A DNA stretch of 40,008 nt from Methanothrix sp. (GTDB lineage: Archaea > Halobacteriota > Methanosarcinia > Methanotrichales > Methanotrichaceae), in the NCBI GenBank assembly GCA_026394555.1, contig JAPKXZ010000002.1:1-40008 (forward strand), written 5' to 3'. How positions within the stretch are numbered: position 1 is the stretch's first letter; each line of letters opens with the position of its first letter. The translations under genes and the position numbers were made by a program. This document shows positions 17,372-23,079 of the stretch, piece after piece. The notes under the pieces are model-generated. The model was given only the letters and a program-made list of their open reading frames with translations, did not search any database and was not told the DNA's origin.

Positions 17372-18088
17372 ATGATAGTTCGATTCATGCTTGATGGCAT
17401 AGTTAGGGGAGGATCATACAGCAAAGAGAATGGCATAATCTCCAGGGGGGAAGTGCTAAGATTGGACGAAGTATTCCTTCTGCCTCCCTGCCAGCCGACG
17501 AAGATCGTCTGTGTGGGCTTAAATTACGTAAAACATGCCCAGGAGCTGAAGATGCCCCTTCCCGAGGAGCCCATTCTCTTCTTGAAGCCTCCTTCTGCCA
17601 TCCTGGACCCGGATGGGCATATCGTCTATCCTGCTTCCAGCAGCCAGGTGGACTACGAAGGCGAGCTGGCGGTAGTTATTGGAAAGCGCTGCAAAAATAT
17701 CCAGGCAGAAGAGGCGGAGAAGTACATCCTGGGCTACACCTGCTTCAACGATGTGACGGCCCGTGATTTGCAGCGCAAGGATGGTCAGTGGACGCGTGCC
17801 AAGAGCTTCGACACCTTTGCCCCCTTCGGCCCCTGGATCGCTAAAATAGATCCCGCTGACGCGGATATTGAGACACGCGTTAACGGAAAAGTGGTGCAGA
17901 AGTCGAACACCTCCGATCTGATCTTCGACGTGCCGAAATTGGTGCAGTTCATAAGCGGGGTCATGACTCTTGAGCCGGGTGATGTGATTGCCACGGGCAC
18001 GCCCCCGGGCGTGGGGCCGCTGAAAAAGGGAGATGCGGTGGAAGTTGATATCGAGGGGATCGGGGTGCTGAGGAACTTTGTGGTGTAG
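17372..18088 (+). CDS. Fumarylacetoacetate hydrolase family protein
   Basis: A 238-residue member of the FAH family (bacterial/archaeal FAHD1-like branch). It has an N-terminal beta-strand cap, then KIVCVGLNYVKHAQEL, the metal-ligand region VDYEGELAVVIGKRCKN (E-x-E), [20 protein letters not shown], the [11 protein letters not shown] loop, and the final [29 protein letters not shown] motif. Members hydrolyse or decarboxylate acylpyruvates, oxaloacetate or ring-cleavage products; the substrate is not decidable. A truncated copy of its 3' half occurs at 21659-21966. Confidence 0.92.
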   Translation: MIVRFMLDGIVRGGSYSKENGIISRGEVLRLDEVFLLPPCQPTKIVCVGLNYVKHAQELKMPLPEEPILFLKPPSAILDPDGHIVYPASSSQVDYEGELAVVIGKRCKNIQAEEAEKYILGYTCFNDVTARDLQRKDGQWTRAKSFDTFAPFGPWIAKIDPADADIETRVNGKVVQKSNTSDLIFDVPKLVQFISGVMTLEPGDVIATGTPPGVGPLKKGDAVEVDIEGIGVLRNFVV

Positions 18089-18133
18089 CAAGATTGAGGA
18101 AACAGCCAAATAGCTTGACGATAGATACCAAAG

Positions 18134-18751
18134 ATGACTATGAAGCTGAAAGTTAAGATTGCCGGTCCTAAAGTGCATGGTGTAGGCTACAGATACTTTT
18201 TGATGAGCAACGCCATAGACTTGGGTCTCAAGGGCTTTCACGCTCGCAATAGGACGGGCGAGAATGGGCCAGAGGTAACAGCCCTGGTCGAAGGCAATGA
18301 AGAAACAATCGCAGATTTTAAGAAGCTGGTAGAGACCCAAAAACCTGACCATTCCCAAGTATCGAGCATTGTCTTTGAGGACTATGAGGGCGATATTATG
18401 AGGACCAGCGAGTATGCCTTTGTTTGCACAAATATACAGCTAAACAAGGCAATCCCGCTACTCCTGGATATGAGAGACAACCTCAAAGAGATGACGGGTG
18501 ATCTGAAAGAGTTGAAGGGTGATATAAAAGAGTTAAAGGGTGATATAAAAGAGTTAAAGGGTGATATGAAAGCAGTGCGGAAGAATACCGATATCATCCC
18601 TCAAATCGGGGAAGACATCAAGGCCGTGAAAGCGAATACGAGTGAGGTCACGGAAGAGATCAAAGGCATGAGGGAAGACATTCAACCAGGATATGCCAGG
18701 CAAATGCAGGCCGATGTCAGAGCGATAAAGGAACGCTTGGGTATGCAGTGA
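18134..18751 (+). CDS. Acylphosphatase-like domain fused to a heptad-repeat coiled coil
   Basis: A 205-residue protein. Residues 1-100 are acylphosphatase-like: KVKIAGPKVHGVGYRYFLM contains the phosphate-loop arginine equivalent (GxV.GVGYR), then FHARNRTGENGPEVTALVEG at the position of the catalytic asparagine. A helical part follows from about 112, with four seven-residue repeats (GDLKELK, GDIKELK twice, GDMKAVR) and a long amphipathic tail. The repeats are nearly identical at DNA level (21-base unit, 18498-18570). This fusion is not the usual single-domain 90-residue enzyme, so a regulatory or scaffold role is possible. Two further copies of the N-terminal part lie at 20.6 and 21.5 kb. Confidence 0.7.
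   Translation: MTMKLKVKIAGPKVHGVGYRYFLMSNAIDLGLKGFHARNRTGENGPEVTALVEGNEETIADFKKLVETQKPDHSQVSSIVFEDYEGDIMRTSEYAFVCTNIQLNKAIPLLLDMRDNLKEMTGDLKELKGDIKELKGDIKELKGDMKAVRKNTDIIPQIGEDIKAVKANTSEVTEEIKGMREDIQPGYARQMQADVRAIKERLGMQ
18498..18570 (+). repeat. 21-base tandem repeats encoding coiled-coil heptads
   Basis: The unit GGTGATATAAAAGAGTTAAAG is repeated about three and a half times in frame, coding for GDIKELK. Two central units are identical, which suggests recent slippage expansion. Confidence 0.8.
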
Positions 18752-18817
18752 GTTTGCCGCGAATCCAAAAAGAGGCCAGGGCTAATAGCTGGTGGCAATT
18801 CTGGAAGAGGAATTAAG

Positions 18818-19084
18818 ATGATCCCTAGTGATGTATATATCGGCGTCCTTTTTGTAGCCGCAATTTTTATGCTATTCCTAATAAGCCAAATACTTGAACA
18901 TGGAATTGGTAGAGTCGTCATGGCGGTTCTTGCAGAAGCGGCTATTATTATTGTAATCTTCGCTATTGGCTATTTTGTGAATCCCGCAGGAAAAATGGGT
19001 TCGTTATTCGCAATTGTTTTCTCAATTGCTTCGGTGATAATTTTATGGGGAACATGGAAGGAAGTAATTCGATATGGAAAATAA
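18818..19084 (+). CDS. Small three-helix membrane protein, unknown
   Basis: An 88-residue protein that is almost wholly hydrophobic: three predicted transmembrane helices (about residues 7-25, 32-52 and 60-80) and a short basic C-terminus (WKEVIRYGK). GGAAGAGGAATTAAG precedes the ATG. No family recognised. It sits between the acylphosphatase/coiled-coil gene and the islet beginning at 19089, whose left inverted repeat overlaps the 3' flank of this gene. Confidence 0.55.
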   Translation: MIPSDVYIGVLFVAAIFMLFLISQILEHGIGRVVMAVLAEAAIIIVIFAIGYFVNPAGKMGSLFAIVFSIASVIILWGTWKEVIRYGK

Positions 19085-19088
19085 CTAA

Positions 19089-19132
19089 GTGAAACGGCTG
19101 CGGCGCACCCGCGGGGCGAGCTAGCGAGGTAT
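19089..19132 (+). repeat. Left arm of an imperfect inverted repeat bounding a 0.4-kb islet
   Basis: GTGAAACGGCTGCGGCGCAC and the following ~20 bases pair with 19444-19487. The outer 25 bases match at 23 positions and the match continues more weakly inward. Confidence 0.6.
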
Positions 19133-19139
19133 TGCGATA

Positions 19140-19268
19140 ATGGCAACTGTTGAAGTTCAAAAAGAGGATGTATTGGCGGCTTATGCAGATGAGCAGTATA
19201 GGAAGCTCCAGAAAGAGAAGGATCAATACATATCACTTGATGAGTATTGCACCAAACGTGGCATTTAG
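19140..19268 (+). CDS. Small antitoxin-like ORF
   Basis: A 42-residue ORF starting at ATG 19140 and reading MATVEVQKEDVLAAYADEQY, then RKLQKEKDQYISLDEYC and TKRGI. It is short, acidic and helix-rich with an ISLDEYC motif, resembling small archaeal antitoxin-type proteins. No matching toxin gene is visible downstream: the following bases read FLEEGDRTALDNGIIS and a lysine-rich end in another frame. It lies within the inverted-repeat islet 19089-19487. Function inferred weakly from form only. Confidence 0.4.
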   Translation: MATVEVQKEDVLAAYADEQYRKLQKEKDQYISLDEYCTKRGI

Positions 19269-19443
19269 ATTCTGTTATTCCTAACTTAGCCGCGATAAAG
19301 CTAAGTTCATGGCGCAAGAAGCGATTTCTGGAAGAGGGGGATCGTACAGCGCTCGATAATGGCATTATCTCCAGCAAGCAGGTGCCAAAAAGACGCAAGA
19401 AAAAAGGATAAATGATTGTACTGGAGTCAATTTATTATTTTGA

Positions 19444-19487
19444 ATACCCAGTAGCTCTGCTGCGCGGCTGCGCCGCCGCCGTTTCAC
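19444..19487 (-). repeat. Right arm of the inverted repeat bounding the 0.4-kb islet
   Basis: The reverse complement begins GTGAAACGGCGGCGGCGCAG, matching the arm at 19089. The arms enclose about 310 bases. Confidence 0.6.
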
Positions 19488-19636
19488 CTGATTTCACAAC
19501 AATATAATCTGTTGTTAATCAATTTCTGATGATTGGGTTTCTTGAATAAAATAGATGCACCCGTATGGAAAACCTTAAAATGATGCATTGGTAACACTAT
19601 TTCAGGTGAGATGAAATCAAAGGAGATAAGATATAA

Positions 19637-20467
19637 TTGGCAATTGATTGGAATCAAGTTTCAAGCACTATTACGGCAATTGCAACAGTTGGACTTGCTA
19701 TTTACGCCTATAAATCCTTCAAAGGCGTTAAGGATCAAATGGACTTAGTATATAAACAATCTGTAGATATGAAACGACAAGCAGATGCAATGGAAATTCA
19801 ATCTAAATTTATTAGAAACCAATCAGATGCTATGGCAAAACAAGCAGATATTATGGATAGCCAAACTGACTTTGTCCGCGACCAATCTTTTGCCATCCAA
19901 AATCAGGCAAAGACAATGTTAGAACAAGCCGAGGCCATGAAAAGCCAATCAGATTCTATGAAAAAGCAGTCAAATCTTATGCTAGAAAATATGGAGTATG
20001 ATCGATTGGTAAAAAAATATGAAAGAGTCAACAGAGAAATGGTCAAATTAGTAGGACCGTTATTTGAAAGAAAGAATGATATAAATATATTTTCGTTGAA
20101 ATATAAGCGTTCAGTAAGAATAGTTGTATCACCAACATCAAGAGTTCCAGATCCAAGTCCAAATACTCTAATTTATGACTTCGTATCATTTTGGGATTCG
20201 ATCGAACAAAACATGTATCTTAATAGATCCTCTGAATTTCAAACTGTTTTTAGTAGTTATTCTGTCTATGTAAGAGACTATTTCCAGAAAGCAGAAAGCG
20301 GCGCTGATGAAAAGCGGAAACAAGATCTTGAAGATATTTTCAATAGAAATAGGAAACCAGAATTTATTCGTGAAATAGAAATAAGACACTTGGAGCTTTC
20401 AACTGAGCTCAAGGACATAGAAAGCCAACTTAGCATGAAAATATCTGAAGAAAAAAAAGTCCTCTGA
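19637..20467 (+). CDS. Membrane-anchored long coiled-coil protein, A+T-rich
   Basis: A 276-residue protein starting at TTG 19637 with AGGAGAT nine bases upstream. One N-terminal transmembrane helix (STITAIATVGLAIYAYKSF) is followed by about 90 residues of Gln/Met/Asp-rich helix with repeating phrases (QSDAMAKQADIMDSQ, MKSQSDSMKKQSNLM), then a globular C-terminal part of about 140 residues with a second coiled coil. The codons are strikingly richer in A and T than in the neighbouring genes, suggesting recent acquisition. This architecture is common among membrane-tethered phage- or defence-island-associated proteins of unknown role. No enzymatic motif seen. Confidence 0.65.
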   Translation: MAIDWNQVSSTITAIATVGLAIYAYKSFKGVKDQMDLVYKQSVDMKRQADAMEIQSKFIRNQSDAMAKQADIMDSQTDFVRDQSFAIQNQAKTMLEQAEAMKSQSDSMKKQSNLMLENMEYDRLVKKYERVNREMVKLVGPLFERKNDINIFSLKYKRSVRIVVSPTSRVPDPSPNTLIYDFVSFWDSIEQNMYLNRSSEFQTVFSSYSVYVRDYFQKAESGADEKRKQDLEDIFNRNRKPEFIREIEIRHLELSTELKDIESQLSMKISEEKKVL

Positions 20468-20649
20468 GTAGCGTTTCAAGTTGCTTGGCTCATGAAATTT
20501 CCTCATAGCTATTGATTTTAATGATTTAGTGGATAGGGAAAATAGGGTTCCTCGCTGTTATTGGTGGTCAAGGGGCAAATTTTATTAATATCATTTCGAA
20601 GTTGTCTTGGAAAAAACCAAATAGCTTGCCGATGCATATCAAGGGTGAC

Positions 20650-20970
20650 ATGAAGCAGCAAGCCAAGATAACCGGTCCCAAAGTACATGATGTGGGCTAT
20701 CGCATATTCCTGATGGAGGCGGCAATGGATTGCGGAGTGCACAGAATTTCTGCCTGCTGGTGGGAGGAAGATCGCCCGCAAACACTCATCTGCCTGGTTG
20801 AGGATGAGGAGGCAAGAATCACCGCCTTCCAGAAGTTCATAAAGAGCCATAAGCCGGTGCAAGCTGAGGTATCGGCTATCACTTGGGAAGATTACGATGG
20901 CGAAGTGATGCACATCAGCGAATTTGCCCAGATCTGCACTTGCATGGTTCTTCAAAGGCTATTTGTGTAG
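20650..20970 (+). CDS. Divergent acylphosphatase-like protein (second copy)
   Basis: The frame is open from 20602, but ATG 20650 (after AAGGGTGAC) matches the start of the related copies and gives 106 residues: [22 protein letters not shown]. The fold follows an acylphosphatase: GVGYR-type loop replaced by DVGYR, then an altered central part (ACWWEEDRPQTLICLVEDEE) where the catalytic Asn motif should be. The C-terminus ends CTCMVLQRLFV with no coiled coil. The catalytic asparagine is not evident, so enzymatic activity is doubtful. Its 5' flank (about 50 bases before the ATG) is nearly the same as that of the copy at 21510. Confidence 0.6.
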   Translation: MKQQAKITGPKVHDVGYRIFLMEAAMDCGVHRISACWWEEDRPQTLICLVEDEEARITAFQKFIKSHKPVQAEVSAITWEDYDGEVMHISEFAQICTCMVLQRLFV

Positions 20971-21039
20971 ACGATTTCTTTGAAGAAGGCATAGTTCATC
21001 GAAATGCGAGAAGTCTCTATAGCCAGTGGATGATGGTTT

Positions 21040-21180
21040 TGTTAGTTCGTCGCTCTGTGCGTACTCTGTGAACTTTGTGTCTCTGTGGTGGATTAGTCGT
21101 TAGCCACTGGTTATAACCAATGGTTTACGGAATAGAACCACAGAGTCGCAGAGCGCACGGAGGACGAACGAACGGAGATT
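21040..21180. repeat. Foldback element with a palindromic centre
   Basis: GTTCGTCGCTCTGTGCGTACTCTGTG... on the left pairs imperfectly with ...CACAGAGTCGCAGAGCGCACGGAGGACGAAC on the right. In the middle, CCACTGGTTA at 21104 meets TAACCAATGG up to 21123, a near-perfect 20-base palindrome with one mismatch. No coding function seen. It lies directly before a gene scrap and may be an intergenic foldback repeat. Confidence 0.6.
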
Positions 21181-21266
21181 ACTTCTCTTTCGATCTGCCC
21201 TCAAACTCCTGGAACGTGCGCAGTGCGAAGACCGGCACCTTCGTCTGGCCGATGATGGCGACTATG
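21179..21266 (-). pseudogene. 3' scrap of an unidentified gene
   Basis: On the minus strand one frame reads KDAVFIVAIIGQTKVPVFAL and then RTFQEFEGRSKEK to a stop at 21179-21181. The peptide is protein-like, with a hydrophobic strand followed by a charged end. It is out of frame with the adjacent GHMP-kinase scrap. I do not recognise the family. Confidence 0.35.
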
Positions 21267-21515
21267 AACACCGCATCCTTGGACCATCGTCCTCGCTCGC
21301 CCCCGCGCGTGCAGCCCCGGCCATGTGCACCTTCAGCCCCTCGTTATCCACCTTTGTCTCAATGGCAATCTCCAGCCCCAAAGGCTCAATAAGCTTGGCT
21401 ACCTCTTCTCGGCTGCGGTCGGTTACGATGGCAATGGAGGGGCCTACCGAGCTCATGCCCACGAACTGCAGGCCGCTCTCCCGCAAAAGGCTCATGTGCC
21501 GATTGAAGATGTCTT
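21262..21515 (-). pseudogene. C-terminal scrap of a beta-RFAP synthase-like GHMP protein
   Basis: The minus strand reads IFNRHMSLLRESGLQFVGMS, then SVGPSIAIVTDRSREEVAKL and a KVDNEGLKVH end. This matches the C-terminus of beta-ribofuranosylaminobenzene 5'-phosphate synthase, an enzyme of methanopterin synthesis, which has a GxxGMSSFGPTVYA motif. The N-terminal two thirds are absent: the frame runs into the acylphosphatase copy at 21510. It is a stranded end of a translocated gene; a functional copy is expected elsewhere in a methanogen. Confidence 0.55.
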
Positions 21516-21966
21516 GGAAACAAACAAATAGCTTGCCGATACAGATCAAGGGCGACATGAAGCAGCAAGCCAAGATTACCGGTCCCAAAGTGCATGATGT
21601 GGGCTATCGCATATTCCTGATGAGCAATGCCATAGACTTGGGTCTCAAAGGCTTCCAGGCTTCAACGATGTGACGGCCCGTGATCTGCAGCGCAAAGATG
21701 GTCAGTGGACGCGTGCCAAGAGCTTCGATACCTTTGCCCCCTTTGGCCCCTGGATCGCCAAAATAGATCCCTTTGACGCGGATATTGAGACGCGCGTCAA
21801 CGGAAAGGTGATGCAGTTCATAAGCGGAGTCATGACTCTTGAGCCGGATGATGTGATTGCTACGGGCACGTCCCCCAGGAGTGGGGCCTCTGAAAAAGGG
21901 AGATGCGGTGGAAGTAGCGATCGAGGGGATTGGGGTTCTGAGGAATTTTGTGGTGTAGCAAGATTG
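21510..21966 (+). pseudogene. Chimera: acylphosphatase 5' part joined to the FAA-hydrolase 3' half
   Basis: Bases 21510-21658 repeat the leader and first codons of the acylphosphatase-like genes ([20 protein letters not shown]). At the GGCTTC junction near 21655 the sequence changes to a copy of the FAA-hydrolase gene corresponding to 17742-18096. Relative to the intact gene it lacks 48 bases (17900-17947), exactly one repeat interval between two GTGCAG-containing direct repeats. A one-base insertion near 21870-21880 then breaks the frame before the GDAVEV end. Homology continues past the stop codon. Neither fused part can make an active enzyme. Confidence 0.8.
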
Positions 21967-22355: not shown

Positions 22356-22416
22356 ACTTTCGCTGCGCACTAATTGACTTAATATAGCAATGGTGCGACC
22401 ATATTATGTTAATATG

Positions 22417-23079
22417 AAAACTGCCTACAAGTTCCGGCTATATCCAAACAGGCAACAAGAAGCACAATTGGCCTTAACGCTGGATACCTGTAGGCATCTT
22501 TGGAATAAAGCACTTGCTGATCGCAAAAATGCCTGGGAACGCGAAGGTATAACTCGATCTTACGAAGATCAGGCAGCTTTGCTGGTCTTTGAGAAACAGT
22601 CTAATCACAACCTCAATGCAGTCCATTCTCAGGTCGAACAGGATGTCTTGAGGAGGCTTCAGAAATCCGTTGATAACTTCTTTCGAAGAGTTCGCGAAGG
22701 GGCTCGAAAAAAAGGCTACCCCAGGTTCAAGTCCATTAACCGTTATAGCTCGGTTACCTATCCCCAGTCAGGGTTCAAATTGAACGGCTCTCTGCTGATA
22801 CTCTCAAAAATTTCCGGCGGCATTAGAACCTTTGTGCATAGGCCTATTGCGGGCAGGATCAAAACCGTGGTATTGGTAAATCCCTATAACACTAGCCAGA
22901 GATGTTCTGCTTGTGGTGAGATCGTGCCCAAAAAGCTGAAAGATAGGGTACATATCTGCTCTCGGTGTGGTCTCATAATCTGCCGAGATCTCAATGCAAG
23001 CATGGGAATCAGAACCCTCGGACTGAGGGGGATAGCCTGTGGAGAACCGACCTATGGCTTTGGCCTATGTACAAAGTAA
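22417..23079 (+). pseudogene. tnpB: TnpB, RuvC nuclease core deleted
   Basis: A 220-codon frame (also open from ATG 22390). It starts MKTAYKFRLYPNRQQEAQL, then QVEQDVLRRLQKSVDNFFRR and KKGYPRFKSINRY, the normal N-terminal third of TnpB. It then jumps from PIAGRIKTVVLVNPYNTSQ straight to the zinc finger CSACGEIVPKKL...CSRCG and CRDLNASMGI. Full-length TnpB is about 370-400 residues. The missing part holds the first two RuvC acidic motifs, so the protein cannot be an RNA-guided nuclease. The junction is in frame. Confidence 0.85.

Follow-up and report, generated by a model that had tools for sequence, protein, structure and literature searches.

The window analyzed here, a 40,008-nt stretch of a Methanothrix sp. 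contig, contains three acylphosphatase-like sequences preceded by similar DNA, which raises the question of what kind of gene is repeated at this locus and what keeps its upstream DNA alike while the encoded proteins diverge. All three look-alike copies listed by a first-pass annotation are present, and its observation that the first alone carries a tail is true within the window. The sequences belong to a large archaeal family in which an acylphosphatase domain is joined to a C-terminal heptad coiled coil, and which is strongly expanded in Methanothrix.

Copy 1 (18140..18751, + strand) is an intact gene of 203 aa including the coiled coil. It comprises an acylphosphatase domain (18140..18433, + strand; Pfam PF00708, 55.5 bits at a cut-off of 22.5 bits) with both Arg18 and Asn37, and a coiled-coil tail (18434..18748, + strand); no other Pfam domain scored above its cut-off. 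The start common to the family is the ATG at 18140, and a further in-frame ATG is located upstream at 18134. The neighboring gene (17372..18088, + strand) belongs to the fumarylacetoacetate hydrolase (FAH) family (PF01557, 255.9 bits). In an AlphaFold2 model of the copy 1 monomer (pLDDT 90.6) the domain is ferredoxin-like, with strands at residues 2-8, 32-40, 43-51 and 76-81 and helices at 17-27 and 54-66; a helix spanning residues 89-180 comes next, and then a second one that reaches 199. The top Foldseek matches of the model were acylphosphatases (TM to target up to 0.78), in agreement with a ferredoxin-like alpha/beta fold.

The hydrophobic residues of the tail recur with a period of 3.5 residues, and none of 2000 shuffles was equally strong. 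In-frame 21-nt repeats of one heptad each (KELKGDI; 18485..18589, + strand, repeat D3) occur within the tail of copy 1, and its orthologs, which are approximately 94% identical with low dN/dS, measure 189 and 182 aa, i.e., they differ in length by whole heptads. Among the members, 29 of 62 tail lengths fall into one class modulo 7, a count that is not independent of phylogeny. In two adjacent paralogs on G000:C27 (L014, 3230-3799 and 4051-4620) the cores are 43% and the tails 84% identical, and from these sequences conversion of the tail appears likely. A tail-bearing fragment of the family was also found on the minus strand of L167 (G001:C1:521500-526500, approximately 2281-2583), where it adjoins a TnpB-like gene and an IS transposase.

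Stand-alone acylphosphatases measure approximately 90-100 aa, and the roles of the active-site Arg and Asn have been described (PMC13044899). The present proteins resemble acylphosphatase (EC 3.6.1.7, PF00708) in the fold, the Arg of the phosphate-binding loop and the catalytic Asn, but differ in the addition of a coiled coil of approximately 100 aa, in H-D/G in place of Q-G in the loop (V-H-D/G-V-G-Y-R versus V-Q-G-V-x-x-R) and in their number, with up to 18 matches per genome. All NCBIfam acylphosphatase models remained below their cut-offs (best score 36.8 versus an equivalog cut-off of 100 bits), as they did for the ordinary 88-aa acylphosphatase of the same genome. The best profile match to a solved chain was HypF (3vth, E 2.3e-6), whose N-terminal acylphosphatase domain is likewise part of a larger protein; the zinc-finger and carbamoyltransferase parts of HypF are, however, absent from copy 1.

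The organism's own genome contains approximately 10 family members on seven contigs, in addition to the one ordinary acylphosphatase. A search of this genome with the DNA of the leader and gene start matched only family members, in six places at E<=3e-11, which is far more than chance would give, and leader and gene start were present in 20 of 26 genomes of the genus. The case that the first-pass annotation had set against its own proposal, a leader found only here within one tandem duplication, therefore does not apply, since block and gene are dispersed. Using a profile of 73 members, 25 of the 26 genus genomes yielded 1-18 matches each at E<=1e-9, and 75 of 238 genomes of the class and 79 of 393 sampled genomes of the phylum were positive; these figures refer to samples of genomes, and the matches do not give an exact number of genes. 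Nearly all named relatives are from Methanothrix/Methanosaeta, with a few from Methanoperedens and one from Methanospirillum. Two relatives with bacterial record names (L067 and L121) are probably mis-binned contigs, because they fall among Methanothrix sequences on the tree. The first-pass annotation had also called the fusion unfamiliar for acylphosphatases. A literature search of incomplete coverage indeed found no paper on this architecture or on its expansion in Methanothrix; the fusion is nevertheless no one-off, being the standard form of the protein in a family that extends across the phylum. The family is thus real and undescribed in the literature searched; its architecture, copy number and modular evolution are new, the enzyme fold is known.

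Arg18 is present in 86 of 86 members and Asn37 in 83 of 86, among cores that diverge to approximately 35% identity, and each of the 14 close pairs analyzed had a dN lower than its dS. The three exceptions at Asn37 are copy 2 and its ortholog, which have Trp, and one other member with Lys. Copy 2 (20650..20970, + strand; 106 aa; PF00708, 25.8 bits) is tailless and, as the first-pass annotation had noticed, has lost the likely catalytic Asn; it is an exception in a family whose usual state is tailed and which retains the active-site Arg and Asn. Its ortholog in another species (G015) shares both losses, so the state of copy 2 does not reflect fresh decay, and this, together with a dN of 0.084 versus a dS of 0.204 between the two, indicates that copy 2 is probably being maintained as a variant. 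Such constraint on proteins that lack the Asn would suit the main functional rival, in which the family is non-catalytic, with a rod that serves as a scaffold and an acylphosphatase fold that only binds a partner or an anion; the altered phosphate loop and the ordinary acylphosphatase already present in the genome point in the same direction. The near-invariance of Arg and Asn across such diverged cores would, however, be hard to explain without catalysis, and we regard the non-catalytic reading as unlikely.

Copy 3 (21557..21673, + strand) is a dead fragment and not a gene. Its 38 codons form a chimera, which resembles copy 2 up to ...CTGATG and copy 1 from there on, and which then runs into a duplicate (21659..21966, + strand; repeats D2, D5 and D7) that is 90-93% identical to positions 17742-18096, i.e., the 3' part of the FAH gene. 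The remnant scored 21.8 bits with PF00708, which is below the cut-off. The third acylphosphatase-like gene of the first-pass annotation thus exists as sequence but not as a gene. Between copies 2 and 3 (21265..21507, - strand) lies another duplicate fragment, which corresponds to the end of a gene whose intact version is found at G000:C44:9879-10109 (92% aa identity). Of the DNA separating copies 1 and 2, approximately 1.8 kb (18809..20597) is mostly absent from the orthologous G015 locus (blastn to L164). The order of that locus is FAH gene, acylphosphatase, FAH fragment, acylphosphatase and tailless acylphosphatase, with the same FAH fragment placed between its tandem copies, and the window can therefore be regarded as derived by rearrangement from a tandem array of FAH and acylphosphatase genes. 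The dead copy 3, the scattered fragments of FAH and other genes, and several paralogs elsewhere that are partial or contain in-frame stops are what would be expected if an old tandem duplication of acylphosphatase were simply decaying into shrinking copies without special function. The similarity and low dN/dS of the copy 1 orthologs and the intact, dispersed copies across the phylum make such ordinary decay a distinctly improbable account.

Regarding the DNA ahead of the genes, the conserved stretch that the first-pass annotation had seen before each ATG was confirmed as a block of approximately 42-43 nt (GGAAA...), which extends from 18098, 20609 and 21516 to the ATGs at 18140, 20650 and 21557 (18098..18139, 20609..20649 and 21516..21556, all + strand). 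The blocks of copies 2 and 3 (repeats D4 and D6) are almost identical to each other, have 11 further nt in common upstream and show 78-80% identity to that of copy 1. The latter consists of a BRE-like GGAAAC at 18098, a TATA-like AAATAG at 18108-18113, an A/T element and an SD-like block ahead of the ATG. An information profile was computed from 65 members picked by protein similarity alone, without regard to the leader. Information is approximately 0.05-0.1 bits upstream of about -44, rises to approximately 1 bit in GGAAACAACCAAATAG and peaks again at GATACATATC and AAGGATGA (ACATAT and the block preceding the ATG). AAATAG, which is not a canonical TATA box, begins 31-33 nt ahead of the ATG in 49 of the 53 members that have it, and the A/T element lies near -14 from the ATG. 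This promoter is common to most copies of the family, but more distant members have other TATA-like boxes and not this exact block. GAAACTTTAAATA is found at a similar distance upstream of a tRNA-Gly gene of a relative. In archaea, the TATA box lies approximately 27 nt and the BRE approximately 33 nt upstream of the start site, with the A/T element at a distance of approximately 10 nt from it (PMC5316973). The layout of the block, with a BRE and a TATA-like box at a fixed distance and an A/T element, is that of an archaeal core promoter, and the conserved 'leader' is best read as such rather than as a transcribed leader; its spacing would predict a transcription start only a few bases away from the ATG. 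Order and spacing of the elements are like those of the mapped core promoters of Thermococcus onnurineus (PMC5316973), but the present block is near-identical across dozens of paralogs and species and ends abruptly at the BRE. Four-fold sites are only 0.29-0.46 identical among members with 30-80% protein identity, so that recent copying does not suffice to explain the block, which is kept by selection or recombination.

If the block were instead transcribed as a regulatory RNA, similar to a riboswitch or an attenuator and co-regulating the family, it would also be conserved upstream of many copies, and an SD-like GGATGA does precede the ATG. The block is, however, only about 43 nt long and arranged like a BRE and TATA box, an alignment of 36 sequences yielded 0 predicted pairs of conserved or covarying RNA structure, and a search of Rfam with the block gave no match; on the latter two grounds the RNA leader was rejected as extremely unlikely. 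Of the suggestion by the first-pass annotation that the leader marks a unit which spreads or is regulated, dispersal together with the gene is borne out, but the leader is best read as a core promoter and not as RNA.

The proteins themselves are modular. Between members whose cores are 0.3-0.4 identical, identity is 0.70-0.72 over the first 23 residues and 0.50 over the tails. Using segments of fixed length, which avoids a bias from short tails, the effect of core clade on DNA identity was 0.151 for the core, 0.062 for the first 23 codons, 0.066 for the start of the tail, 0.024 for the promoter and 0.006 for the last 40 codons (p=0.157); nearest-neighbor counts are not independent of phylogeny. 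A mosaic was found in the first copy of L057 (L057_2982), which is linked to FAH in the same place as copy 1 and has a clade-A promoter and start; its start, core and tail are 0.97, 0.82 and 0.92 identical to relatives from clades A, B and A, respectively. Copy 3 is a second mosaic, with the switch at about the same codon. The simplest reading of these sequences is reassortment of modules by recombination, with strong constraint on the ends contributing; the conserved ends could be partly due to selection rather than recombination. Paralog families with conserved ends and a variable middle that are diversified by recombination are a general concept. The present family is like them in its conserved start and end, diverged core and mosaics, but differs in that no switching system or bank of silent cassettes is shown here.

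In many pairs of close relatives the shared DNA is limited to the stretch from about -45 through the stop codon. Pairs in different contexts (dS 0.33-0.57) share no flanks, whereas pairs in the same context (dS 0.29-0.42) still do, which argues that a compact unit of promoter plus gene has reached new places. These sharp ends could indicate a mobile element, transposon-like or a cassette carried by IS200/IS605, that moved the gene along as DNA, and it might be added that a TnpB/IS605 gene is present in the window (22390-23079), that the copy on C69 has a repeated hairpin element directly beside its stop codon and that G013 lacks this copy at the corresponding junction. The ends, however, coincide with a promoter and a stop codon and could be preserved by selection alone, and the hairpin element stands beside only one of the loci compared. 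Terminal repeats, target duplications or a transposase of its own were not seen at the copies examined, the search for target duplications not being exhaustive; 40 pattern matches on viral contigs included no relative of the family, and plasmids gave one weak, partial match. The intergenic DNA of G013 at the junction is itself unrelated, so that there is no clean empty site and the ends of an insertion are unreadable. With no transposase, terminal repeat or viral or plasmid carrier tied to the unit, it is best described as a duplicated, recombined gene and not as a demonstrated mobile element; we consider the mobile-element reading improbable. The hairpin element mentioned above measures 57 nt, begins with the first base that follows the stop of the G000:C69 paralog (L013, approximately 2573-2631, - strand) and has a 9-bp hairpin (ATGAGTTGA/TCAACTCAT); copies approximately 90% identical occur in most genomes of the genus, several of them near contig ends, like an IS end.

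Clustering of the neighbors (367 flanking ORFs) revealed no partner that recurs at more than four loci, and hence there is no operon-based pointer to a function or pathway. Judged from the sequences, the most likely function of the family is that of multimeric acyl-phosphate hydrolases with diversified pockets under their own promoters, the predicted catalysis being supported by residue conservation and the predicted multimerization by heptad periodicity. We favor, at a probability of roughly 60%, the reading that these genes are autonomous transcription units for coiled-coil-multimerized acylphosphatases with diversified pockets, which spread as a promoter-to-stop unit and exchange their cores. 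Each gene would form its own transcription unit, and its product would multimerize through the rod and so bring together several phosphate-binding active sites, which, keeping the catalytic Arg and Asn, would hydrolyze acyl phosphates; the diverged core might determine the choice of substrate or partner. The family would grow as the compact unit is copied; recombination events within its conserved ends would place different cores between the same promoter with the first 23 codons and the same tail.

Few small protein folds have been studied as well as acylphosphatase, but what it does in cells is poorly settled. A coiled-coil fusion that retains its active site despite deep divergence and reaches up to 18 matches per genome in a globally important methanogen offers a handle on this role, and the family is a clear archaeal case of a fixed promoter and two fixed protein ends around an exchanged catalytic core. 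It might even be speculated, with a small chance of being right, that proteins sharing promoter and rod form mixed multimers whose cores dephosphorylate particular targets (e.g., aspartyl phosphates on signaling proteins), the recombining ends supplying new combinations; methanogens would then have a phosphatase repertoire diversified by recombination.

Some further features of the locus were observed. The interval between copies 1 and 2 contains, at 18818-20467, an 88-aa membrane ORF starting at 18818 with a weak NADH chain 4L-like match and a 276-aa ORF starting at 19637 with membrane and coiled-coil segments, as well as a 25-nt inverted repeat (19089-19113 and 19463-19487; GTGAAACGGC.../...GCCGTTTCAC) that is 92% complementary, with its arms 349 nt apart. 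The IS605 OrfB/TnpB-like gene (PF12323, PF07282) encodes 229 aa, which is short for an intact TnpB. A 33-nt inverted repeat is located at 21057-21169 around 'CACAGAGTC...', and similar DNA is present in the locus of a relative.
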